From an uncultured Clostridia bacterium (GTDB lineage Bacteria; Bacillota; Clostridia; Christensenellales; Borkfalkiaceae), in NCBI GenBank assembly GCA_905235785.1, contig CAJOMP010000003.1:16578-59376 (forward strand): a stretch of DNA of 42,799 nt, read 5' to 3'. Within the stretch, counting starts at the first letter, position 1, and each line of letters begins with the position of its first letter. The notes below the pieces were generated by a model that was not told the DNA's origin, searched no databases, and saw only the letters and a list, made by a program, of their open reading frames with translations. Positions 5,785 through 19,977 of this stretch are shown here, one piece after another. A program made the translations under genes and the position numbers.

Positions 5785-6249
5785 ATGGACAAAAAGATAC
5801 TTAAAATCGAACTTGTGCCCGACGGGTGTTGGTATTCTAATCTTCGCGCCGTGCTTTCCGCAAAAGAGTGGAATTACATTAAAGCGAAAGCCAAGGAAAG
5901 GGCGGGCGGCAAGTGCGCAATCTGCGGGAAAAAAACTAATTATCTCGACGCGCACGAGCAGTGGAGTTACGACGAGAAAAAAGGCGTCCAGAAACTTATC
6001 GGCATTATCGCCGTGTGTAAGGATTGCCACAGCGTTATACACATAGGCAGAACATCGCTTGTCGGCAATATCGAAAAAGCGGAAAATCATTATTTAAAAG
6101 TAAACGGCGCGACTTACGCGGAATACCGCGCGGCGCTTAAAAAGGCTAACGAAGAACATAGGCGGCGAAACGAAGTGTCCGAGTGGTCGCTCGACATTTC
6201 TTATCTTAAAGATTATTTAGACGAAGGAGATACAAGTGGAAATCATTGA
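5785..6249 (+). CDS. HNH-type zinc-containing protein / putative nuclease
   Basis: CAICGKKTNYLDAHEQW...VCKDCHSVIH pattern (CxxC, H, CxxCH). Confidence 0.65.
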   Translation: MDKKILKIELVPDGCWYSNLRAVLSAKEWNYIKAKAKERAGGKCAICGKKTNYLDAHEQWSYDEKKGVQKLIGIIAVCKDCHSVIHIGRTSLVGNIEKAENHYLKVNGATYAEYRAALKKANEEHRRRNEVSEWSLDISYLKDYLDEGDTSGNH

Positions 6250-7030
6250 CGCGCACGCGCATATTTATCCTGCGAAGATAGCGGCAAAAGCAACGGACGC
6301 GATAGGAGCGTTTTACGATATCAAAATGGCGATGCCTGCGGGAATTCCCGACAGACTTATCGAAGTCGGTAAAAAGGCGGGAATTTCTCGGTTTGTCGTG
6401 CACTCTTGCGCAACGAAAGCGGCGCAGGTCAGGTCGATAAACGAGTTCATCAAAAAGGAAATAGACGAGCATCCGGAATTTCTCGGATTTATGACTTTGC
6501 ATCAGGATCTTACGGAAGAACAGGTGGAAGAAGAGATCGAGTGGTGTTTAAAAAACGGGTTCAAAGGCATAAAGTTGCACCCCGATTTTCAGAAATTTTA
6601 TATCGACGGCGAAAACGCGGAAAAGTTTTACCGCGCGGCGGGCGATAAACTTCCTATATTGTTTCACACGGGCGACAACAGATACGAGTATTCTAAACCG
6701 CACAGACTTGCGAAAATTGCCGCAAAGTATAGAAACGTCAATTTTATCGGCGCGCATTTCGGCGGCTATCGCTGTTGGGACGAAGTGGATTGCTATATGG
6801 GGCTCGATAACGTGTATTTCGACACTTGTTCGTCGTTGCCGTTTATTTCGGCGGAAAAGGCGGAAGGTTTAATAAGAAAATTCGGCGCGGAAAAATTCTT
6901 TTTCGGTACGGATTTCCCGATGTGGGACGCAAGTGAAGAGATAGAGCGTTTCAATAAACTTTCGCTTTCCGATAATGAAAAAGAAAAGATTTTGGCGCTG
7001 AATATAAAAACGTTGCTTAAACTTGATTGA
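6236..7030 (+). CDS. Amidohydrolase family (amidohydrolase_2) TIM-barrel protein
   Basis: GTG start with aaggag SD; IIDAHAHIYP, GIKLHPDFQ, LFHTGDN, GAHFGG, FGTDFPMWD motifs. Confidence 0.85.
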   Translation: MEIIDAHAHIYPAKIAAKATDAIGAFYDIKMAMPAGIPDRLIEVGKKAGISRFVVHSCATKAAQVRSINEFIKKEIDEHPEFLGFMTLHQDLTEEQVEEEIEWCLKNGFKGIKLHPDFQKFYIDGENAEKFYRAAGDKLPILFHTGDNRYEYSKPHRLAKIAAKYRNVNFIGAHFGGYRCWDEVDCYMGLDNVYFDTCSSLPFISAEKAEGLIRKFGAEKFFFGTDFPMWDASEEIERFNKLSLSDNEKEKILALNIKTLLKLD

Positions 7031-7046
7031 AACGGATTTAAAACGC

Positions 7047-7075
7047 TTGACAAAGTCAGGCGTAATCGTTATAAT
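7047..7075 (+). promoter_or_regulatory. Sigma-A promoter upstream of T-box leader
   Basis: TTGACA (7047-7052), 17-bp spacer, TATAAT (7070-7075): full consensus. Confidence 0.85.
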
Positions 7076-7120
7076 TATAAAAAAAATATTTTGTTAAGAA
7101 ATATATTCAATAATATTCAA

Positions 7121-7380
7121 TGCGATAACGGAGATATTCCGTAGTTCGGGGCTTAAAGAGAGTCGGCGGGTGGTGTAAGCCGACGGAACCGATACGGTCG
7201 CTCACTCCGTTGCAGGCGTGGTGAAAGGGAAACCGAGTAATTGCGTTCGTAACCCCGCGTTAAGGGGAAATAGAGAGATTGCGCGGCTTAAAAACGTTAA
7301 ATTTAGCCAAGGCGCAGTAAAACGGGTGGTACCGCGGTTATTTCGTCCCGAACTGTTGTTCAGTTCGGGCGTTTTTTTAT
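7121..7380 (+). ncRNA. T-box leader riboswitch, putative CUC (Leu) specifier
   Basis: T-box sequence gggtggtaccgcg at 7324-7336; downstream terminator cccgaactgttgttcagttcggg + T7; AGAGAG motif; Stem I base aacggag (7127-7133) pairs with ctccgtt (7205-7211); specifier loop tcgCTCa places CTC at 7201-7203. Confidence 0.9.
7344..7378 (+). terminator. T-box leader intrinsic terminator
   Basis: cccgaactgttgttcagttcggg followed by gttttttt. Confidence 0.85.
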
Positions 7381-7405
7381 TCAATCACTAATAGAGGAGG
7401 GTATT

Positions 7406-8812
7406 ATGAAAAAAATATCGATATGCGACACGTCGCTGAAAGTAATCGGTACGGGCATGGCGAACGTACTGTCATTTAAAGAAAAACTGGAAATAGCGAA
7501 GCGACTTAGCGAACTGTGCGTTGACTGTATCGAAGTTAACCCTTCCAAAAGCGATAAAGCGGACGAGATTTTAATAAAAACGATTTGTAATTGCGTCGGT
7601 AAATCCGTAGTGTCCTGCGTTTCGGGCGATACGGCGGAACAGATCGAAGCGAATTATGCGCTGATAGCGGGCGCGAAAAGAAAACGGCTTAACGTTGTTA
7701 TTCCGGTTTCGCCCATACAAATGGAATATACGCTCGGTAAAAAACCCGCGTCGGTTTTGGAACAATTAAAAACGCTTATCTTAAAGGCGGTTTCCCTTTG
7801 CGAAGACGTTGAAGTTTCTTTGGTCGACGCGACGCGCGCCGAACCCGACTTTTTATACGGCGCTATCAAAACGGCGATAGAGTGCGGGGCAAAGACCGTA
7901 TCGGTGGACGATATCGCGGGCACAATGCTCCCCGAAGAGTTCACTGCGTTCGTCAAGGGTATAATCGATAACGTTCCGCAAATTGCAAGCGTAAATCTCG
8001 TTGTCGGAGCAAGCGACGTTCTCGGAATGGGGGTTGCGAACGCGCTTTCGGCAATCGCCGCGGGCGCCGACGGAATAAAGGTTTCTTCCGTTAAAACCGA
8101 CGCTTTGCCTTCTACCGAAAGAATTTCCGCCGCAATGGAAAATATCGGCGTAAAACGCGGTTACGACACTAATCTTAATAAAACGGCTATTAAACGCCTT
8201 GTTTCCGCTATCGCAGAACTTTCGACCGTTAAAAGCGAAAAATCCGCGACGAGCGTTTCGGAAGAGCAAGTCGAATCTCTTTCAAAAGAACTTTCGCTTT
8301 CCGCGCTGTCGAAAATCATAAAAAAACGCGGTTACGATTTGGGCGCCGACGACGTTAAAAAGGTTTATTCCGAGTTTATCAGACTTTCCGACAAGAAAGA
8401 AGTCAACACCAAAGAACTCGACGCGATAATCGCGGCTAACGCTTTGCAAGTGCAGGAAACTTATTCGCTTGAAAACTTTTCCGTGTACACGAGCAACGTT
8501 TTGCCGTCAACCGCAAGCATAACTCTCTTAAAAGACGGCAAGTCGCACAGCGGACTTTCGTACGGCAACGGTCCTGTTGACGCGGCGTTTCTTGCCATCG
8601 AGTCGGTAACCGGCAGACATATCGAACTCGACGATTTCGACCTGTCGGCGGTAACGGAAGGTAAAGAAGCTATGGGACAAGCGATAGTTAAACTGCGCCA
8701 TAACGGGGTAATATATTCGGGCAGGGGAATTTCTACCGATATAGTCGGCGCTTCTATCCGCGCTTATCTCGGCGCTATAAATAAAATAGTATACGAGGAG
8801 AGTAAAAAATGA
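7406..8812 (+). CDS. LeuA-like (2-isopropylmalate synthase family) protein with C-terminal LeuA dimer domain; catalytic motifs missing
   Basis: HMGL-like TIM barrel (SLVDATRAEPDFL, SVDDIAGTMLPEEF, DVLGMGVANALSAIAAGADGIKVS) and C-terminal regulatory-like domain (ITLLKDGKSHSGLSYGNGPVDAAFLAIESVTG); lacks DxTLRDGEQ and HxHND. Confidence 0.8.
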   Translation: MKKISICDTSLKVIGTGMANVLSFKEKLEIAKRLSELCVDCIEVNPSKSDKADEILIKTICNCVGKSVVSCVSGDTAEQIEANYALIAGAKRKRLNVVIPVSPIQMEYTLGKKPASVLEQLKTLILKAVSLCEDVEVSLVDATRAEPDFLYGAIKTAIECGAKTVSVDDIAGTMLPEEFTAFVKGIIDNVPQIASVNLVVGASDVLGMGVANALSAIAAGADGIKVSSVKTDALPSTERISAAMENIGVKRGYDTNLNKTAIKRLVSAIAELSTVKSEKSATSVSEEQVESLSKELSLSALSKIIKKRGYDLGADDVKKVYSEFIRLSDKKEVNTKELDAIIAANALQVQETYSLENFSVYTSNVLPSTASITLLKDGKSHSGLSYGNGPVDAAFLAIESVTGRHIELDDFDLSAVTEGKEAMGQAIVKLRHNGVIYSGRGISTDIVGASIRAYLGAINKIVYEESKK

Positions 8813-11316
8813 ACCTGTCATTTTCAACCAACGGCTGGAAACTCTCTTTCGACGTTTTGATGAAATTACTTAACGAAAATAAAATTTTCGGTCTTGAATT
8901 GCACGACGTTTCTTCGACCGTGTTCGGCGCGGAAAAACCGTTTGCGAAACAGAACTTATCTAAAACCAAAAAGAAACTGTTTGAAAACGGCGTAACTATT
9001 TCCTGTATAGACGCCGTCGGTAATCTTGCCGGCGATAGCGAAGATAAAAACGTAAAAGAAATTCTTTCGCTTATTTCGCTCGCGAAAGACCTTGATTGTA
9101 AGTACATACGCTTGCACGCGTTTGCGGCGGACGATAAAGACTTCGCTTACTGTGACGCTAACGTGAAATCGGTGGTAAAACGCGTTCTTTCGGACGCGGA
9201 GAAGTCGGGCGTTACTTTGCTTATCGAAACTATGGGTATATACGCCGACACTTCGCTCCTAGCGGAAACGCTCGGAGAATTTGCGTGCGACAATCTTTCC
9301 GCCGTATGGGACGTGTACCATACTTGCGCTCTTGCAGGCGAGAGCCCCGATAAGACGGTTAAAAATCTCGGCAAACATATAAAACATATTCATATTAAAG
9401 ACAGCGTTAAGACGGAAAACGGCGCTTGCTACCGTTTGCTCGGAGAAGGCGAGTTGCCGCTTAAAGCGGTTTTTGCTACCTTGCGTTCGGTCAATTACGA
9501 AGGCTTTATGTCGCTCGAACTCTATCCCGACGCTTTGGAAGGGCTTGGCGACGCGGAAATAGTATTGCCGCAGTTTGCGGGGTATATGTCGGGTTTTGAA
9601 TCCGTACCGTCGTGGCGTAGCGGGCTTTACGACAACAAAACTAAAACGGGCAAATATATTTGGGAAAAGGAAACGCTTATCGATTGCACTTTTCCGCAGG
9701 TTTTAGACCGTGTGGTAAAGGAGTTTCCCGATCAGATAGCATTTAAATATACAACGCTCGATTATACCCGTACGTATTCGGAATTCCGCGACGAAGTCGA
9801 CGTTGTCGCGCGCGCTTTAATGTCCGTGGGCGTTAAAAAGGGCGACCACGTTGCGGTGTGGGCGACCAACGTGCCCGAGTGGTATCTTACTTTTTGGGCA
9901 ACGATAAAAATCGGCGCTGTACTCGTTACAGTTAATACGGCATACAAAATTCACGAAGCGGAATACCTTTTAAAGCAGTCGGACACGCATACTCTCGTAC
10001 TCATTAAGGGGTACAGAGATTCCGACTACGCGGGCATAATCAACGAATTGTGTCCCGAACTCAAATCGGTCAAAAAGGGCGAACCGCTCCACTCTAAACG
10101 TCTGCCGTTTTTGCGCAACGTGATAACGGTCGGTTTTGAACAGGCAGGTTCGCTTACCTTTGCGGAATTTATGGACAGAGCGAAGACGGTTTCAAAAGAA
10201 GAACTCGCTGTTCTTGCTAACGCCGTCGACGTGCACGACGTATGCAATATGCAATACACTTCCGGCACGACGGGATTTCCGAAAGGGGTAATGCTCACTC
10301 ACTATAACGTAGTCAACAACGGCAAGTGTATAGGCGACAGGATGGATCTCTCTACCGCCGACCGTATGATGATACAAGTGCCTATGTTCCATTGTTTCGG
10401 AATGGTGCTCGCTATGACGGCGTCGATAACTCACGGCGTTACCATTTGCCCGTTACCGTATTATTCGCCGAAACCCGCTCTTGCCTGTATAAATCAGGAG
10501 CGGATAACCTGTTTCCACGGCGTTCCGACAATGTTTATCGGTATGCTTTCTCATCCCGATTTTGAAAGGACGGATTTTTCCTATATGAGAACGGGTATAA
10601 TGGCGGGCAGCCCCTGTCCCGTCGCAGTAATGCAGGAAGTTGTCGACAAAATGAATATGAAGGAAATAACTATCGTTTACGGACAGACGGAGGCGTCCCC
10701 CGGGTGCACAATGTCTTCTACCGACGACAGTTTGGAAGTCAGAGTGAATACAGTCGGCAGAAATCTTCCGAATATAGAGTGTAAGATAGTCGATCCCGAA
10801 ACGGGCGAAGAGTTGCCGTATAACACCGTGGGCGAATTTGTGGCGCGCGGGTATAACTTAATGAAGGGGTATTATAAAATGCCCTTGGAAACGGCGCAGG
10901 CGATTGACGCCGGCGGCTGGTTACACACTGGCGATTTGGCGCTTAAAATGCCCGACGGCAATTACAGGATAACGGGCAGGCTCAAAGATATGATAATCCG
11001 CGGCGGCGAGAACCTGTATCCCAAAGAGATAGAAGATTTCTTATACACACACCCGAAAGTCAGCGACGTGCAGGTGGTAGGCGTTCCGGACGAAAAGTAC
11101 GGCGAAGAAGCGTACGCTTTCGTTATAGTAAAGGAAGGCGAGAGCCTTACAGAAAAGGAGTTGCGCGATTTTTGCGTTGCGAATATAGCAAAGCACAAAG
11201 TTCCGAGATACTTTGATTTTGTGGACGCTTTCCCGATGAACGCCGCGGGTAAAATATTAAAGTATAAAATGCGCGAAGACGCGGCAAATAAGATAAAAAA
11301 TATTACGAAACAATAA
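8809..11316 (+). CDS. Fusion protein: N-terminal sugar-phosphate isomerase/epimerase-like TIM barrel + C-terminal AMP-forming acyl-CoA synthetase
   Basis: N-term LLIETMG, WDVYH, HIHIKD, SLELYPD (AP_endonuc_2-like); C-term YTSGTTGFPKGVMLTH, YGQTEASPG, WLHTGDLALKMPDGNYRITGRLKDMIIRGGENLYPKEIE. Confidence 0.9.
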   Translation: MNLSFSTNGWKLSFDVLMKLLNENKIFGLELHDVSSTVFGAEKPFAKQNLSKTKKKLFENGVTISCIDAVGNLAGDSEDKNVKEILSLISLAKDLDCKYIRLHAFAADDKDFAYCDANVKSVVKRVLSDAEKSGVTLLIETMGIYADTSLLAETLGEFACDNLSAVWDVYHTCALAGESPDKTVKNLGKHIKHIHIKDSVKTENGACYRLLGEGELPLKAVFATLRSVNYEGFMSLELYPDALEGLGDAEIVLPQFAGYMSGFESVPSWRSGLYDNKTKTGKYIWEKETLIDCTFPQVLDRVVKEFPDQIAFKYTTLDYTRTYSEFRDEVDVVARALMSVGVKKGDHVAVWATNVPEWYLTFWATIKIGAVLVTVNTAYKIHEAEYLLKQSDTHTLVLIKGYRDSDYAGIINELCPELKSVKKGEPLHSKRLPFLRNVITVGFEQAGSLTFAEFMDRAKTVSKEELAVLANAVDVHDVCNMQYTSGTTGFPKGVMLTHYNVVNNGKCIGDRMDLSTADRMMIQVPMFHCFGMVLAMTASITHGVTICPLPYYSPKPALACINQERITCFHGVPTMFIGMLSHPDFERTDFSYMRTGIMAGSPCPVAVMQEVVDKMNMKEITIVYGQTEASPGCTMSSTDDSLEVRVNTVGRNLPNIECKIVDPETGEELPYNTVGEFVARGYNLMKGYYKMPLETAQAIDAGGWLHTGDLALKMPDGNYRITGRLKDMIIRGGENLYPKEIEDFLYTHPKVSDVQVVGVPDEKYGEEAYAFVIVKEGESLTEKELRDFCVANIAKHKVPRYFDFVDAFPMNAAGKILKYKMREDAANKIKNITKQ

Positions 11317-11329
11317 AAGGAGCATTGTT

Positions 11330-12394
11330 ATGGAAATAAAAATCGAAAAAGCGAAAACGTTAAAAGACAAGCCGGATTCTAATAAACTCGGTTTCGGTAA
11401 ATATTTCACCGACCATATGTTTGTTGCAGATTTTGACGAAAAGAACGGCTGGCACGACGCGAGAATAGTTCCTTTCGGGTATATGCCTATACATCCCGCG
11501 TCAACCGTATTTCATTACGGCGCGGAAATTTTTGAAGGCATGAAGGCTTATAAAACATCGGACGGTTATCAAATGTTCCGCCCGTTTGAAAATCTCAAAC
11601 GTATGAATAATTCCGCGGAACGTCTTTGCCTTCCCGAAATTCCCGAAGATATGTGGATAGAAGGGCTTACTAAACTTATCGATCTCGACTACGAGTGGAT
11701 ACCCGAAAGCGCGGGAACGTCTTTATATATCCGCCCGTTTATGTTCGGCAACGACGAATCTTTGGGCGTACATGCCGTTCATAATGCGAGATTCGTTATA
11801 ATTCTCTCGCCCGTCGGAAACTATTACGCGGAAGGGCTTAATCCCGTAAAAATCAGCATAGAAAGCGAAGACGTAAGGGCGGTACGCGGCGGTACGGGGT
11901 ACGCTAAATGCGGCGGAAACTATGCGGCAAGTTTAAGAGCGGGAAAAAGAGCCGAATCGCAGGGTATTTCGCAGGTTTTGTGGCTCGACGGCGTCGAAAG
12001 AAAGTATATCGAAGAAGTCGGCTCTATGAACGTTATGTTTAAAATCGACGGCGAAGTGGTAACGCCCGCGCTCACGGGTTCGGTGCTCCCCGGTATAACC
12101 AGAAAATCCATAATAGAAATATTAAAAGAAAAAGGGTACAAAGTTTCCGAAAGGCTTATTTCGGTTGACGAATTAGCAAGCGCGGCAGAAAGCGGTAAAC
12201 TCGAAGAAGCGTGGGGCACGGGAACGGCGGCAGTCGTTTCTCCCATAGGACACCTGTATTATAAAGGTAAAGATTACGTTGTTTCCGATAATAAAATCGG
12301 TAAACTCACGCAAGAACTCTACGACGAACTTACGGGAATACAGTGGGGCAGAATCAAGGACGAACGCAACTGGTGCTATAAGGTGAAAATTTAA
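11330..12394 (+). CDS. ilvE: Branched-chain amino acid aminotransferase
   Basis: FEGMKAYKT, FRPFENLKRMNNSAERLCLP, RPFMFG, GTGYAKCGGNYAASL, LPGITRKSI. Confidence 0.92.
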   Translation: MEIKIEKAKTLKDKPDSNKLGFGKYFTDHMFVADFDEKNGWHDARIVPFGYMPIHPASTVFHYGAEIFEGMKAYKTSDGYQMFRPFENLKRMNNSAERLCLPEIPEDMWIEGLTKLIDLDYEWIPESAGTSLYIRPFMFGNDESLGVHAVHNARFVIILSPVGNYYAEGLNPVKISIESEDVRAVRGGTGYAKCGGNYAASLRAGKRAESQGISQVLWLDGVERKYIEEVGSMNVMFKIDGEVVTPALTGSVLPGITRKSIIEILKEKGYKVSERLISVDELASAAESGKLEEAWGTGTAAVVSPIGHLYYKGKDYVVSDNKIGKLTQELYDELTGIQWGRIKDERNWCYKVKI

Positions 12395-13062
12395 TGTTCG
12401 ATAAACGCGTTGCGCTTTTTATGGGGCATTACGGTAGCGGTAAAACTTTTTGCGCCGTAAATTACGCTCTTGCGCTCGCAAGAAAAGGCTTTCCCGTAAG
12501 TATTTACGATCTCGATATCGTAAACCCGTATTTCAGAACTGTAGACGCCTATAAAACGCTCGAAAAAGCGGGTGTGGAACTAATAGTTTCGCCGTATGCC
12601 GAAACAAACGTGGATATTCCCGCAATGAACGCGGCGTCATATAAAATGGTGGACGATAAGTCTCGGCGCGCGGTGCTGGACGTAGGCGGCGACGAACGCG
12701 GCGCGCTTGCGCTCGGCAGGTTTTACGAGAAAATCAACGAAGAAAACGATTTCGATTGTTTTTTAGTGGTAAATCCGTTTCGTCCCGAAACGCGCGACAT
12801 CGCGGGGGCGATTGACGTCAAAAACGAAATTGAAACAGTTTCGAGAATAAAGTTTACGGGAATAGTAAACAACGCTAATTTAGGCGAAGAAACGACGTTA
12901 GAGCATATATTTTACGGCAAAGAATTCTGCGAGAAGTTGGGCGAAAAATTAAATATTCCCGTCAAATTTTCCGCTGTTACGGGAAGACTTTGCGAAAAAG
13001 CGAAGGAAAAAACTGACAAGGTGTTGCCCGTCGAACCGATAAAGTACGGCGACTGGCTGTAA
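12394..13062 (+). CDS. P-loop ATPase (ParA/MinD-like) in 2-oxoacid oxidoreductase operon
   Basis: Walker A GHYGSGKTF; DLDIVNPYFR; LDVGGDERGA; TAATG overlap with preceding gene. Confidence 0.75.
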   Translation: MFDKRVALFMGHYGSGKTFCAVNYALALARKGFPVSIYDLDIVNPYFRTVDAYKTLEKAGVELIVSPYAETNVDIPAMNAASYKMVDDKSRRAVLDVGGDERGALALGRFYEKINEENDFDCFLVVNPFRPETRDIAGAIDVKNEIETVSRIKFTGIVNNANLGEETTLEHIFYGKEFCEKLGEKLNIPVKFSAVTGRLCEKAKEKTDKVLPVEPIKYGDWL

Positions 13063-13077
13063 TATAAGGAGTAAAAA

Positions 13078-13284
13078 ATGGCAAAGGTTATTTTTAACGA
13101 AGATCGTTGCAAAGGATGCGGATTGTGCGTTACGGCTTGTCCGAAAGGCATAGTTTCGCTGGAAAAAGACAAAATCAATGCAAAAGGGTATCACCCCGCC
13201 GGAGTCAAGGAACAGGATAAGTGTATAGGTTGCGCGAGTTGCGCGCTTATGTGTCCCGATACGGTCATAACGGTGGAAAGGTAG
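13078..13284 (+). CDS. 2-oxoacid:ferredoxin oxidoreductase, ferredoxin (delta) subunit, 2x[4Fe-4S]
   Basis: CKGCGLCVTACPKG and CIGCASCALMCPD. Confidence 0.92.
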   Translation: MAKVIFNEDRCKGCGLCVTACPKGIVSLEKDKINAKGYHPAGVKEQDKCIGCASCALMCPDTVITVER

Positions 13285-13291
13285 GTGTAAA

Positions 13292-14362
13292 ATGAGCGAA
13301 AAAGTTTTAATGAAAGGAAACGAAGCCTTGGCGGAAGCGGCAATAATGGCAGGATGTAAGCATTATTTCGGCTATCCGATAACGCCGCAGACGGAAGTTG
13401 CGGCATACATGGCAAAGCGTATGCCGAAAATCGGCGGTACGTTTTTACAAGCGGAATCGGAGATTGCCGCGATAAATATGGTTATCGGCGCGGCGTCTTG
13501 CGGCGTGAGAGCGATGACGAGCAGCAGCAGTCCCGGAATTTCTTTAAAGAGCGAAGGAATTTCTTATCTTGCCGGTTGCGAATTGCCCGCGCTTATAGTA
13601 AACGTTCAAAGGGGCGGCCCGGGGCTCGGCGGAATACAGCCTTCGCAGTCGGATTATTTTCAGGCGACGAAAGGCGGCGGACACGGCGACTATCACCTGA
13701 TAGTTTTAGCCCCCGCGTCTGTGCAGGAAATGTTTGATATGGCGTTTAAGGGCTTTAACCTTGCCGATAAATACCGTGTTCCCGCAATGATACTTGCGGA
13801 CGGAACGATGGGGCAAATGATGGAACCCGTAAGCCTTGACGCTAACGCTATTGAGACGTATGATAAACCTTGGGCGACCAAGGGTACGGGCAATCACGAA
13901 GGCAGAAACGTTATAAACTCGCTTTCTCTTTCACCCGCGCAACTCGAAGAGTGGAACGTTTCCCGTTACGAAAGATACGCGGCGATCGAGCGCGACGAAG
14001 TTATGTACGAAGAGTTTATGATGGACGATGCGGAAATATGCGTCGTGGCGTTCGGCATAGCGGCGCGCGTTTCAAAGAACGCAGTAGTGGCGGCGAGAAA
14101 ACAAGGGTTAAAAGTCGGTATGATTCGCCCGATAACTTTGTGGCCTTTCCCGAAGGAAGTTTTGAATAAGGCGGCAGACAAAGTAAAGGCTTTCCTTTCC
14201 GTGGAACTCAATATGGGGCAGATGGTCGACGACGTCAAACTTGCGACAGGGTGTAAAAAACCCGTATACTTCTACGGTAGAACGGGCGGCGTGATTATGA
14301 GCCCCGACGAAGTGCTTTCCGCAATTCAAAAAATCGAAAAAGGAGAAGCGAAACAATGGTAG
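13292..14362 (+). CDS. vorB: 2-oxoacid:ferredoxin oxidoreductase alpha subunit (VorB/KorA type)
   Basis: KGNEALAEAAIMAGCKHYFGYPITPQTE; SSSPGISLKSEGISYLAGCELP; RGGPGLGGIQPSQSDY. Confidence 0.92.
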   Translation: MSEKVLMKGNEALAEAAIMAGCKHYFGYPITPQTEVAAYMAKRMPKIGGTFLQAESEIAAINMVIGAASCGVRAMTSSSSPGISLKSEGISYLAGCELPALIVNVQRGGPGLGGIQPSQSDYFQATKGGGHGDYHLIVLAPASVQEMFDMAFKGFNLADKYRVPAMILADGTMGQMMEPVSLDANAIETYDKPWATKGTGNHEGRNVINSLSLSPAQLEEWNVSRYERYAAIERDEVMYEEFMMDDAEICVVAFGIAARVSKNAVVAARKQGLKVGMIRPITLWPFPKEVLNKAADKVKAFLSVELNMGQMVDDVKLATGCKKPVYFYGRTGGVIMSPDEVLSAIQKIEKGEAKQW

Positions 14363-15102
14363 TATTTGAAAAGACCAAAGGATTGACAGACGCTCCGCTC
14401 CATTATTGCCCGGGGTGTACTCACGGTATTATTCACAGACTTGTGGCGGAATCGCTCGAAGAACTCGGTGTTCTCGATAAGACGGTCGGCGTTGCGAGCG
14501 TCGGTTGTTCGGTGTTCTCATACAATTATTTTAATTGCGATATGATACAGGCGGCGCACGGAAGAGCGCCCGCGGTAGCGACCGGTGCAAAACGCGCAGA
14601 CCCCACGAAAGTCGTCTTTACATATCAGGGCGACGGCGACCTTGCGGCTATCGGCACGGCAGAAACTGTGCATGCGGCGGCGAGAAATGAAAATATTACA
14701 GTCATTTTCGTCAATAATGCTATTTACGGTATGACAGGCGGACAGATGGCGCCGACAACTCTTCCTAATCAGGTAACGCAAACGTCGCCTTACGGCAGAG
14801 ACGTAACCGTTGTGGGATATCCCGTGAAAGTGTGCGAAATGTTGTCGCAGGTAACGGGCGCGTCTTATCTTGAAAGAGTTGCGGTAAACAACGTCAAAAA
14901 CATCCGCGCGGCGAAGAAAGCGATAAAGCGTGCTTTCCAAAACCAGATAGAAGGCAAAGGTTTTTCACTTATTGAAGTGCTTTCTACATGCCCTACGAAC
15001 TGGGGATTATCGCCTAGCGAAGCGATAAAGTGGCTGGACGAAAATATGGAAACGTATTATCCGCTCGGCGTGTATAAAGACAAATACAAGGAGGAGAAAT
15101 AA
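14356..15102 (+). CDS. 2-oxoacid:ferredoxin oxidoreductase beta subunit (TPP-binding)
   Basis: CPGCTHGIIHRL; GDGDLAAIGTAETVHAAARNENITVIFVNNAIYGMTGGQMAPTT. Confidence 0.92.
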   Translation: MVVFEKTKGLTDAPLHYCPGCTHGIIHRLVAESLEELGVLDKTVGVASVGCSVFSYNYFNCDMIQAAHGRAPAVATGAKRADPTKVVFTYQGDGDLAAIGTAETVHAAARNENITVIFVNNAIYGMTGGQMAPTTLPNQVTQTSPYGRDVTVVGYPVKVCEMLSQVTGASYLERVAVNNVKNIRAAKKAIKRAFQNQIEGKGFSLIEVLSTCPTNWGLSPSEAIKWLDENMETYYPLGVYKDKYKEEK

Positions 15103-15636
15103 ATGGCGACAAAAATTCTGATAGCGGGATTCGGCGGACAGGGCATATTGTTCGCGGGAAAGGCGCTCGCGTATACGGGATTGAAATGCGGCAAAGAAGT
15201 ATCATGGCTACCGTCCTACGGCCCCGAAATGCGCGGCGGCACGGCGAATTGCAGCGTAACGATATCCGACGACCCGATAGGTTCGCCGATTGTCGATAAG
15301 CCCGACGTGCTTATCGCGATGAATTTGCCTTCGCTTGAAAAATATTATAACGAAACAGAACCGAAAGGTTATATCATATACGACAGTTCGCTGATTACCA
15401 AGCAGGATACCAGAGACGATGTTATCACCGTTGGTATACCTGCGACAAAACTTGCAAGTGATAACGGACTCGACGGACTTGCGAATATGATAATCTTGGG
15501 TAAGACCGTAAAAGAAACGGGTATACTTACTCTCGAACAGATTGAAAGCAGTCTATCGCAAATGGTTCCCGCAAAAAAAGCGGAACTTCTTAAAAACAAT
15601 ATAAAGGCGATAGAATTAGGTTATAATTTCCGTTAG
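15103..15636 (+). CDS. 2-oxoacid:ferredoxin oxidoreductase gamma subunit
   Basis: [52 protein letters not shown]. Confidence 0.92.
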
Positions 15637-15649
15637 GGGGGCAAGTCAA

Positions 15650-16201
15650 ATGGATAAACAGTTGATCGAAATGGGTATGCGGCTACGCGAACTTCGCGAA
15701 GTGCACGGCGTCTCGGTGGAAGAAATTGCCGAAAAATTAGGTAAAACCGTCAAAGAATACGAAGAGTACGAAGACGGAAAACAGGATTTTTCTTTCAGTT
15801 TTATGTTGAACGTCGCGACGTTTCTCGGGATAGACGTAGTTAATCTGCTTTCGGGGCAAACGCCCAAACTTTCCGATTGCGCCGTGGTGCGCAAAGGTCA
15901 GGAATTCTTTATCAAGAAAGAAGGCGCTTACGACTATAAACATTTGGCTTACACTTTCAAGAATAAAAAGGGCGAACCGTTTTTCGTTACCTGTATGGCA
16001 GGGGAAGAAGATAAAGTATTCCACTCTCACGAAGGGCAGGAATTTAATTTCGTGCTTTCGGGCAGTATGCGTCTGACGGTCGATAACGTTACTTACGATC
16101 TCAACAAGGGCGACAGTGCTTATTTTAATTCAAACTTGCCGCACGGTATAAAGGTGTTGGGAGACGTGCCCGTAAAATTTCTTGCGGTTGTTATGAAGTG
16201 A
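15650..16201 (+). CDS. XRE-family HTH regulator with C-terminal cupin domain
   Basis: HTH (LRELREVHGVSVEEIAEKLGKTVKEYEEYEDG) plus cupin (FHSHEGQEFNFVLSGSMRLTVDNVTYDLNKGDSAYFNSNLPHGI). Confidence 0.9.
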   Translation: MDKQLIEMGMRLRELREVHGVSVEEIAEKLGKTVKEYEEYEDGKQDFSFSFMLNVATFLGIDVVNLLSGQTPKLSDCAVVRKGQEFFIKKEGAYDYKHLAYTFKNKKGEPFFVTCMAGEEDKVFHSHEGQEFNFVLSGSMRLTVDNVTYDLNKGDSAYFNSNLPHGIKVLGDVPVKFLAVVMK

Positions 16202-16228
16202 TTTTTTACGCCACAAAAGGAGTAAAAA

Positions 16229-17923
16229 ATGGTTTTATACGAAAAATATACAGGAAGAAACAGAGATTCATATAAAGATTTACAGGATTTAAGGGATAAT
16301 TATAAAATAACTTATCCTAAGACGTTTAATTTTGCTTACGACGTCATAGACGAACTTGCAAAAACAAAACCGGACGCTACGGCAATGGTGTGGCTTTCAA
16401 ACACAAAGGAAGAAAAGATATTTACCTTCCGCGATATGAAAGTTTGGTCGGACAAGGCGGCAAACTATTTAAAAAGTCAGGGAATAGGCAAAGGCGACAG
16501 AGTATTGCTTGTTCTAAAAAGAAATTATTATTTCTGGTTTTTAATGCTTGCCCTTCATAAAATAGGCGCAATCGCCGTTCAGGCAACTAATATGCTGGTC
16601 GGAAAAGACTACACATACCGTTGTAACAAAGGCGAGATTAAAGCGGTGTTTATAACGGGCGACGGTGATTGTACGGAACACTTCGACGACGTTGCCAAAG
16701 AGTGCGGTACGGTTAAACTGAAATTTGTCGGAAAGCATAAAAAACCTGTCGGCGGCGGTTGGATAGATTTTGAAACGGGCATAGAAGCGGCGAGCGAGAT
16801 TTGGGAAAGACCGCAAGGTAAAGACGCGGTTAAAGCCGACGATATAATGCTTATGTCCTTTTCTTCGGGAACTACGGGCTATCCCAAAATGATATTGCAT
16901 AGCCATACTTATCCTTTGGGGCATATAGTAACCGGCGTTTTCTGGCACAGGGTAGTTGAAGGCGGATTGCATTTTACCATATCAGATACAGGATGGCTCA
17001 AATCGCTTTGGGGTAAGTTTTACGGTCAATGGTTCGGAGAGTCTGCGGTACTCGTTTACGATTTCGATAAATTCGACGGCGCGGATATCTTGGAAGTACT
17101 TGCAAAATACAAGGTTACGACTTTCTGCGTTCCGCCGACAATGTACCGCTTTATGTTGCAAAACGACGTAAGCAAGTACGACCTATCGTCTCTTACGCAT
17201 TGCTGCGCGGCGGGCGAAGCGTTAAATCCCGATATTTTTAATAAATGGAAAGAATATACGGGACTGTCGATACACGAAGGATTCGGTCAGACCGAAACCA
17301 CTTGTTGTCTCGGTACTTTGGGACGTTATGCCACGCCGCTGTCGGGATTTATCGGCAAATCTATGCCGGGCTACGACGTGCATATACTCGACGCGGAAGG
17401 GCGTGAAAGTCTACCCGGAGAATCCGGCGAGATATGCATTAAAGCCACGCTTAAAAACAAGCCTTGCGGTATAATGTGCGGTTATTATCACGACGAAGAA
17501 GCGACCGAATACAGTTTCCGCGGCGGTTATTTCCATACGGGCGACACGGCATATGCGGACGAACACGGCTTTATAAAGTATATCGGCAGAAACGACGACG
17601 TTATTAAGTCTTCCGGCTACCGTATCGGACCGTTTGAAGTTGAAAGCGTTTTAATGGAACATCCCGCCGTGCTGGAAGTTGCGGTTACGGGCGTTCCCGA
17701 TGCTAAACGCGGCTTTAAAGTAAAAGCGACTATCGTACTTCGTGGCGACTATACTCCGTCCGACGAACTCGTAAAAGAATTGCAGGAATACGTTAAAACG
17801 CATACCGCGCCGTATAAATATCCGCGCGTTATCGAGTTTGTTGACAGCCTTCCGAAAACGATAAGCGGTAAGATTCGCCGTACCGAAATACGCGAAAACG
17901 ACAGTAAAAAATATTCGTTATAA
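16229..17923 (+). CDS. AMP-forming acyl-CoA synthetase (medium-chain acyl-CoA ligase-like)
   Basis: MSFSSGTTGYPKMILHSH; GFGQTETT; YFHTGDTAYADEHGFIKYIGRNDDVIKSSGYRIGPFEVE; ISGKIRR. Confidence 0.92.
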   Translation: MVLYEKYTGRNRDSYKDLQDLRDNYKITYPKTFNFAYDVIDELAKTKPDATAMVWLSNTKEEKIFTFRDMKVWSDKAANYLKSQGIGKGDRVLLVLKRNYYFWFLMLALHKIGAIAVQATNMLVGKDYTYRCNKGEIKAVFITGDGDCTEHFDDVAKECGTVKLKFVGKHKKPVGGGWIDFETGIEAASEIWERPQGKDAVKADDIMLMSFSSGTTGYPKMILHSHTYPLGHIVTGVFWHRVVEGGLHFTISDTGWLKSLWGKFYGQWFGESAVLVYDFDKFDGADILEVLAKYKVTTFCVPPTMYRFMLQNDVSKYDLSSLTHCCAAGEALNPDIFNKWKEYTGLSIHEGFGQTETTCCLGTLGRYATPLSGFIGKSMPGYDVHILDAEGRESLPGESGEICIKATLKNKPCGIMCGYYHDEEATEYSFRGGYFHTGDTAYADEHGFIKYIGRNDDVIKSSGYRIGPFEVESVLMEHPAVLEVAVTGVPDAKRGFKVKATIVLRGDYTPSDELVKELQEYVKTHTAPYKYPRVIEFVDSLPKTISGKIRRTEIRENDSKKYSL

Positions 17924-18387: not shown

Positions 18388-19977
18388 ATGACGATAAAAG
18401 ATAACGTGCTGTTCGGCGGTGAAAAAATAATACTTACTCTTCGCGGGCTGTATTCGGAATACGGGTACGCGCCTTATCATATGAGTAAATTTGAAGAATA
18501 CGATTTGTACGCCAAAAATAAGGAGTTTTTGGTATCGGACAGCGTTATAACTTTTACCGACGCGGACGGCAAACTGATGGCGTTAAAGCCTGACGTTACT
18601 CTGTCTATTATTAAAAACAGCAGAATATCCGACGGAGATATAAGAAAAGTCTATTACAGCGAAAACGTATACAGACCCGCCGACGGTACGGATACATTTA
18701 AAGAGATTATGCAGACGGGGTTAGAGTGTTTCGGCGCGATAACGCAGTCGGAGATTACGGAAGTTATACTTCTTGCGGCGAAAAGTCTTAAACTTCTTTC
18801 AGATGACTGTGTGCTCGACGTGTCCGATATCGGGGCGCTAAATGCAATCACCGCAGATTTTCCGCTTTCCGATTCGGCAAAAAAGACGCTTTATAAAGCG
18901 ATAAGCGAAAAAAACGCGCACGAAATAGAAAAAATCTGTTCGGAAAGCGGAGTAAAGCAAGAAGATACAAAGTTTTTGACGGAATTGTTGAAAATCGGAG
19001 GCAGTGTTAAAACTGCAACGGCTGAACTGTTAAAAATCGCCGATAAATTCGGAAAACGCGCGCTTTTCTATGACGTTAAAACCATACTTGAAACACTTGC
19101 GGAAAGCGAACTCGCAGACGTTATCAGACTTGATTTTTCGGTAACGGGCGACGTAAATTATTATAACGGAATAGTTTTTAAAGGTTTTATAAGCGGAGTG
19201 CCGACGGCGGTGCTTTCGGGCGGGCAGTACGACAATCTTATGCGTCAAATGCATAAAAAGTCGAAAGCGATAGGTTTTGCGGTATACACCGACGCGCTTG
19301 AAAATGCCGAAACTTCCGATTCGGCAAAATCTGATGAAAAAGACGACGGTTTTTTAAATATCGCTCTTCCGAAAGGTCGGCTCGGCGAAAAGGTTTACGC
19401 GCTTTTTGCAAAAGCGGGATATGAGTGTCCTTCGGTTCTCGAACAGAACAGAAAACTCATTTTTGAAAACGCTGAAAAAAAGGTAAGATATTTTTGGGTA
19501 AAGCCTTCTGACGTTGCGATTTACGTGGAACGCGGCGCGGCGGACGTCGGCGTTGCGGGGAAAGACATTTTGCTCGAATATAGACCCGACGTTTACGAAT
19601 TGCTCGATTTAAAAGCGGGAAAATGTAAAATGGCAGTCGCGGCTAAAAACGGATTTAACGATAATCCGGCGAAAACTTTGCGCGTAGCGACCAAGTTTAC
19701 GCATATCGCCAAAGAGTTTTACAGAGCGCAAGGCAGAGATATAGACATAATAAAACTGAACGGGTCGATAGAACTTGCGCCTATTTTGGGGCTGTCCGAC
19801 GTGATAGTAGACATTGTTGAAACGGGTGAAACGTTAAAGGAAAACAACCTTTCGGTTATAGAAACGGTTGTGCCGATAAGCGCGCGGCTTATCGCAAACA
19901 AGTCGGCGAGTAAGTTTAAAGATAAAATTATCGGGACGGCGGTTGAAAAAATCGCCGCGGCGGTGAACGGTTTATGA
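18388..19977 (+). CDS. hisG: HisZ-HisG fusion: ATP phosphoribosyltransferase regulatory + catalytic domains
   Basis: HisZ-like N-term (FTDADGKLMALKPDVTLSIIKN; YYNGIVFKGF; SGGQYDNL) followed in the same ORF by short-form HisG (LNIALPKGRLGEKVYALF; DVAIYVERGAADVGVAGKDIL; DVIVDIVETGETLKENNL). Confidence 0.92.
   Translation: MTIKDNVLFGGEKIILTLRGLYSEYGYAPYHMSKFEEYDLYAKNKEFLVSDSVITFTDADGKLMALKPDVTLSIIKNSRISDGDIRKVYYSENVYRPADGTDTFKEIMQTGLECFGAITQSEITEVILLAAKSLKLLSDDCVLDVSDIGALNAITADFPLSDSAKKTLYKAISEKNAHEIEKICSESGVKQEDTKFLTELLKIGGSVKTATAELLKIADKFGKRALFYDVKTILETLAESELADVIRLDFSVTGDVNYYNGIVFKGFISGVPTAVLSGGQYDNLMRQMHKKSKAIGFAVYTDALENAETSDSAKSDEKDDGFLNIALPKGRLGEKVYALFAKAGYECPSVLEQNRKLIFENAEKKVRYFWVKPSDVAIYVERGAADVGVAGKDILLEYRPDVYELLDLKAGKCKMAVAAKNGFNDNPAKTLRVATKFTHIAKEFYRAQGRDIDIIKLNGSIELAPILGLSDVIVDIVETGETLKENNLSVIETVVPISARLIANKSASKFKDKIIGTAVEKIAAAVNGL

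Follow-up and report, generated by a model that had tools for sequence, protein, structure and literature searches.

The window analysed here, a stretch of 42,799 nucleotides from an uncultured Clostridia bacterium of the family Borkfalkiaceae (contig CAJOMP010000003.1), carries at positions 7047-17923 a ten-gene operon behind a leucine T-box, and this is probably a leucine supply operon switched on by leucine starvation. Judged from its sequence, its products would activate isovalerate, carboxylate it reductively by a 2-oxoacid:ferredoxin oxidoreductase (Vor) and transaminate the product by IlvE. The first gene is a conserved pseudo-LeuA (pLeuA), a former LeuA that is without an active site and has kept its leucine regulatory domain, and its product is the putative leucine-feedback subunit of the system. 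The host is one of a set of Clostridia, from rumen and gut, in which the normal leucine pathway has been lost.

The leucine T-box and its operon

In T-box regulation, an uncharged tRNA binds the leader RNA and causes antitermination. A covariance search with RF00230 produced a single T-box in the window (95.9 bits, gathering score 93, E 5.7e-20, model positions 1-219), a full-length match in which CTC aligns at the specifier position (GUCG-CUC-A-CUCCG), and the leucine reading of a preliminary description of this DNA was upheld, as was its consensus promoter. The leader contains both GGGUGGUACCGCG and a terminator hairpin followed by a T run (z -3.1), and the cognate partner of the specifier, tRNA-Leu(GAG), is encoded in the same genome (G000:C15). 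The specifier reading could be trusted because control T-boxes in this genome and its relatives read as expected, i.e., TTC before pheST, ACC before thrS and TGG before a TrpB-like gene. A specifier for an amino acid outside the branched-chain group was ruled out by the RF00230 alignment and the control T-boxes of the same genome. The ten co-directional open reading frames (ORFs) that follow run through 17923, neighbours overlapping or lying apart by no more than 27 nt, and their order and domains are those already listed in the preliminary description. The genes lie close together and no internal terminator stands out, both of which fit a single transcript. The features, all on the plus strand, are:

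7047..7075, +, sigma-70 type promoter, TTGACA-17-TATAAT, matching the consensus at 12/12 positions
7116..7353, +, T-box leader with Leu specifier CTC
7347..7369, +, intrinsic terminator, sharing bases with the 3' strand of the antiterminator
7406..8812, +, pLeuA, an HMGL TIM barrel without RDGEQ/HxH, LeuA_dimer allosteric domain intact
8809..11316, +, TIM_ACS, predicted isovalerate--CoA ligase, a xylose-isomerase-like TIM barrel (AP_endonuc_2) fused to an AMP-forming acyl-CoA synthetase (AMP-binding)
11330..12394, +, IlvE, branched-chain aminotransferase (NF009897, 471.6 bits, cut-off 307)
12394..13062, +, P-loop ATPase (weak PF10609), its position beside the Vor genes conserved
13078..13284, +, 2x[4Fe-4S] ferredoxin or delta subunit (domain searches)
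13292..14362, +, VorB, 2-oxoacid:ferredoxin oxidoreductase alpha subunit (NF005507, 551.6 bits, cut-off 399)
14356..15102, +, VorA, beta subunit binding thiamine pyrophosphate (Pfam)
15103..15636, +, VorC, gamma subunit (PF01558)
15650..16201, +, XRE-cupin protein (domain search), a free-standing equivalent of the N-terminal region in the Val/Ile synthetases described below
16229..17923, +, MbcS/Macs-like branched short-chain acyl-CoA synthetase (3etc, E 1.6e-196; MbcS NF047394 below cut-off)
6236..7030, +, PF04909 amidohydrolase, an associated gene just upstream of the promoter

The set of Vor subunits is complete, with the alpha subunit over its curated cut-off and the beta, gamma and ferredoxin subunits recognised by Pfam.

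Relatives of pLeuA were sought in 151 genomes of the family and in a named-genome scan, and an order-wide profile search covered 396 genomes. Several full-length relatives came from metagenome-assembled genomes of rumen, reticulum and horse faeces, and the neighbourhood was seen again in 41 further loci, several of them ended by contig boundaries. TIM_ACS directly followed pLeuA in all 41, often with IlvE, the P-loop ATPase, ferredoxin and VorBAC behind it. Across the order, pLeuA was present in 54 genomes from 13 families, separated from true LeuA by a clear gap in score, and the pLeuA/TIM_ACS pair was also adjacent in 18 genomes of distant families. Every homologous leader that precedes the pair specified leucine (50/50: 36 CTC in the near set, 8 CTC and 6 CTG in the distant set), a count that includes leaders related by shared ancestry and so not independent. 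The synonymous switch between CTC and CTG is to be expected if selection acted on the amino acid rather than on the letters. At four distant loci the pair was not immediately preceded by a T-box, and in three of these pLeuA followed IlvE within a longer operon.

Two further features of these neighbourhoods were recorded. At ten loci (L018, L021, L022, L026, L027, L028, L029, L030, L032 and L033) a second T-box-like element lies between the Leu T-box and pLeuA, in most cases with its own promoter; the L033 element is a complete T-box with ATC (Ile) as its specifier, and the other nine have an antiterminator and terminator and no recognisable Stem I. The PF04909 amidohydrolase often lies nearby, upstream in the window's genus and downstream of TIM_ACS in other genera.

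A LeuA without its active site

The first gene had been described as LeuA-like, and this holds for its architecture, an HMGL barrel and a C-terminal LeuA_dimer domain (PF08502, 113 bits vs 24.9), whereas the loss of the LeuA catalytic residues had been missed. In the window protein KVIGT takes the place of RDGEQ and GAS that of HxH, and GERxGN is likewise absent. All 57 pLeuA proteins (39 in the first set and 18 in the distant set) have other residues in place of DTTLRDGEQ and of the HxHND metal ligands, by which a working LeuA was ruled out; the Asp of RD is retained by identity in two of them and HxH in none. As a negative control, two lower-scoring hits (G343 and G471) hold both motifs and are canonical LeuA. 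The curated LeuA models all scored pLeuA below their cut-offs (289.8 vs 532 and 269 vs 598.7 bits). The fold has remained that of LeuA: an AlphaFold model (mean predicted local distance difference test score 87.5) had among its best matches the leucine-bound LeuA of Mycobacterium tuberculosis (3fig), and its barrel alone superimposed on 3rmj with a root-mean-square deviation of 2.2.

That pLeuA is a relic awaiting loss would account for the missing catalytic motifs. We consider this most improbable, since at least 54 genomes from 13 families keep the protein at full length, with its frame nearly always intact, its C-terminal domain is strongly conserved among homologs, and its linkage to TIM_ACS is fixed. 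The partner gene has a barrel of its own, with a sugar epimerase-like fold, whose metal ligands have gone in many relatives, while the window type still carries E, D/H, HxH and E where such barrels normally have them. Two decayed barrels thus adjoin, one with a domain of the leucine-sensing type and one fused to a ligase, and on this ground we propose that pLeuA and TIM_ACS form a regulatory pair, which the linkage suggests. Most likely, pLeuA would bind leucine and restrain TIM_ACS, adding a post-translational layer of feedback to the control by the T-box.

The adjacency and conservation of the two genes at every locus, the residues retained in the window-type TIM half, and the amidohydrolase so often nearby could also speak for two active enzymes with a new chemistry, e.g., the release or modification of a branched acid before its activation. 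This we regard as unlikely, because RDGEQ and HxH are lost from every pLeuA and because a system in which many relatives' TIM halves have no metal ligands is unlikely to depend on catalysis by this half.

The proposed route to leucine and its direction

No ilvB, ilvC or ilvD over cut-off was found in the host's own assembly, and 38/41 genomes of the genus have none of the three (over-cut-off counts: ilvC 2/41, ilvD 3/41, ilvB 3/41). Judged by length and score, no LeuC-sized protein was present in the 41 genus genomes except in G133, where a true LeuA of high HMGL score, itself preceded by a CTC T-box, is also encoded. The TIGR00170 cut-off was dropped as proof of a missing leuC, as LeuC-sized proteins beside canonical LeuAs also score below it. 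Canonical LeuA had no match in 53/54 pLeuA genomes, and order-wide a LeuC-sized protein accompanied true LeuA in 21/23 genomes vs 8/38 for pLeuA (rows counted by eye). The sole other HMGL protein of the host genome resembles NifV/Re-citrate synthase and scores below all cut-offs. The genus member G109 has ilvBCD and no LeuC-type gene and has kept the operon, a pattern that fits a leucine role, since G109 should make the precursors of valine and isoleucine. In the host, genes for activation, carboxylation and transamination are therefore present and the de novo route is absent, in an assembly estimated as 81.6% complete; the assemblies compared here are metagenome-assembled genomes.

The proposed sequence of events is as follows. 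Uncharged tRNA-Leu(GAG) would cause the T-box to antiterminate and the operon to be transcribed. TIM_ACS would then activate environmental isovalerate, and the MbcS/Macs-like synthetase a related branched acid. VorABC with reduced ferredoxin would carboxylate the acyl-CoA to the 2-oxoacid (isovaleryl-CoA to 2-oxoisocaproate), which IlvE would aminate to leucine. The pLeuA protein may bind leucine and hold back TIM_ACS. The isovalerate specificity of TIM_ACS is predicted from its link to the Leu T-box.

The IlvE and Vor families can also work in the oxidative direction, and the genes alone leave the direction unfixed. It could be supposed that Vor forms acyl-CoAs by decarboxylating the branched 2-oxoacids of leucine, valine and isoleucine, in a fermentation yielding ATP and reduced ferredoxin. 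We think this very unlikely: leucine would be wasted by a fermentation induced on leucine starvation, AMP-forming ligases are costly for energy harvest, the de novo genes are missing, and ligase paralogs track Val, Ile and Leu specifiers. The preference of the preliminary description for biosynthesis over fermentation is supported by these same lines of sequence evidence, together with the 50 leucine leaders.

A second alternative, that the synthetases mainly supply branched-chain fatty-acid synthesis, with amino acids secondary, takes its support from the last gene, whose top NCBIfam match is MbcS (429 bits vs an equivalog cut-off of 850). In Staphylococcus aureus, MbcS feeds branched-chain fatty-acid synthesis. 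We likewise give this little credence, as the gene appears to be co-transcribed with Vor and IlvE under amino-acid-specific T-box control.

Several points weigh against the leucine supply operon as drawn here. The ligase half of TIM_ACS, the putative isovaleryl-CoA-forming enzyme, resembles solved enzymes only distantly. That pLeuA is a regulator is guessed from the domain it has kept and from its linkage, and the predicted template modelling score of its model (0.58) makes the domain arrangement unsure. The incompleteness of the host assembly bears on the missing genes, and the absence of leuC was judged by protein length and score, the TIGR00170 cut-off being unreached even beside canonical LeuA; 8 of the 38 wider pLeuA genomes do carry a LeuC-sized homolog. 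In addition, some pLeuA genomes with Leu T-boxes have Vor distant from pLeuA/TIM_ACS.

Ligases matched to amino acids, and known systems

The preliminary description had placed the whole carboxylation route under one leucine T-box, and this part of it did not survive. Nine fusions of an XRE-cupin protein to an acyl-CoA synthetase lie behind Val (GTA) T-boxes and a second set of six behind Ile (ATC) T-boxes. In the synthetase tree, the Ile set forms one clade (99/99), the Val set falls outside it, and the unfused window type makes a third clade (98/100). One Val T-box is in the host's own genome (L068:5104-7696, G000:C28, leader plus ORF), before the gene of a 762-aa protein in which an acyl-CoA synthetase of the AMP-forming type is fused to an XRE helix-turn-helix and a cupin. 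This copy (L068 5408-7696) is 51% identical to the window synthetase, and the window XRE-cupin protein is 34% identical to its residues 5-190. Locus L085 has a Val T-box before its Vor operon and a separate Leu T-box for pLeuA and TIM_ACS. Because the ligases have Val and Ile T-boxes and L085 is split in this way, we picture a common Vor and IlvE served by activation modules that are each specific to one amino acid, rather than a single leucine block; in the host, the fusion under the Val T-box would be the valine branch, sharing Vor and IlvE with the leucine branch. A firm assignment of the window's MbcS-like gene to isoleucine was rejected, as G031 holds both a window-type clade member and an Ile-T-box synthetase.

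Taken further, these observations lead to a more speculative account, to which we give slightly less than an even chance, in which LeuA was stripped of catalysis and retained, after pathway replacement, as the leucine-binding regulatory subunit of a TIM::isovaleryl-CoA synthetase, whereby the carboxylation route would have taken over the leucine feedback of LeuA at its own first step, and each branched amino acid would have its own T-box-switched ligase.

The chemistry itself has long been known. PMC7356843 reports the incorporation of isovalerate into leucine in the rumen (citing Allison 1962/1966) and the carboxylation of isovalerate, isobutyrate and 2-methylbutyrate to leucine, valine and isoleucine in rumen anaerobes (citing Allison 1962, 1966; Allison and Peel 1971; Robinson and Allison). 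The window operon shares the habitat and the predicted overall chemistry of these routes, but they are biochemical labelling results, whereas here the predicted route comes with its genes and with an RNA switch specific for one amino acid. Similarly, the leader is a canonical RF00230 T-box with specifier, antiterminator and terminator, and differs in controlling a ligase/Vor/IlvE set, terms for which are absent from the T-box survey PMC2494555. The last gene aligns across 547 residues with Macs (3etc) of Methanosarcina acetivorans, its best PDB match, an enzyme that prefers 2-methylbutyrate (PMC10455477); it differs from Macs and from the S. aureus MbcS in adjoining an XRE-cupin protein, whose counterpart in the Val and Ile versions forms one polypeptide with the enzyme. 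The carboxylation pathway (Allison, 1960s) and T-boxes are thus established knowledge. No description of T-box control of the carboxylation route, of its partition by amino-acid-matched T-boxes or of a dead LeuA was found in the open-access literature, within which the last two are apparently new, although priority is not proven.

T-box specifiers in such genomes label which ligase serves which amino acid, so that predictions of synthetase substrates follow from the RNA. The pLeuA/TIM_ACS pair may serve as a marker predicting isovalerate dependence in uncultured gut and rumen bacteria, and, if pLeuA does bind leucine and control TIM_ACS, an allosteric domain will have outlived its enzyme and been reused in the replacement pathway.

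Three other loci were noted during this work. A possible aromatic counterpart (L171:1218-7154, G065:C19) has a TAC (Tyr) T-box before genes for an acyl-CoA synthetase, IorA, IorB, a 224-aa protein without a family match and a PaaK-like phenylacetate-CoA ligase. In the host genome (L066:7281-8951, G000:C1), the TGG (Trp) T-box lies upstream of a TrpB-like gene (TIGR01415, over cut-off), perhaps for indole salvage. Within the window, a single 529-aa ORF at 18388-19977 resembles, by eye, a HisZ-HisG fusion and is followed by HisD; it lies downstream of a TrpR-like YerC gene.

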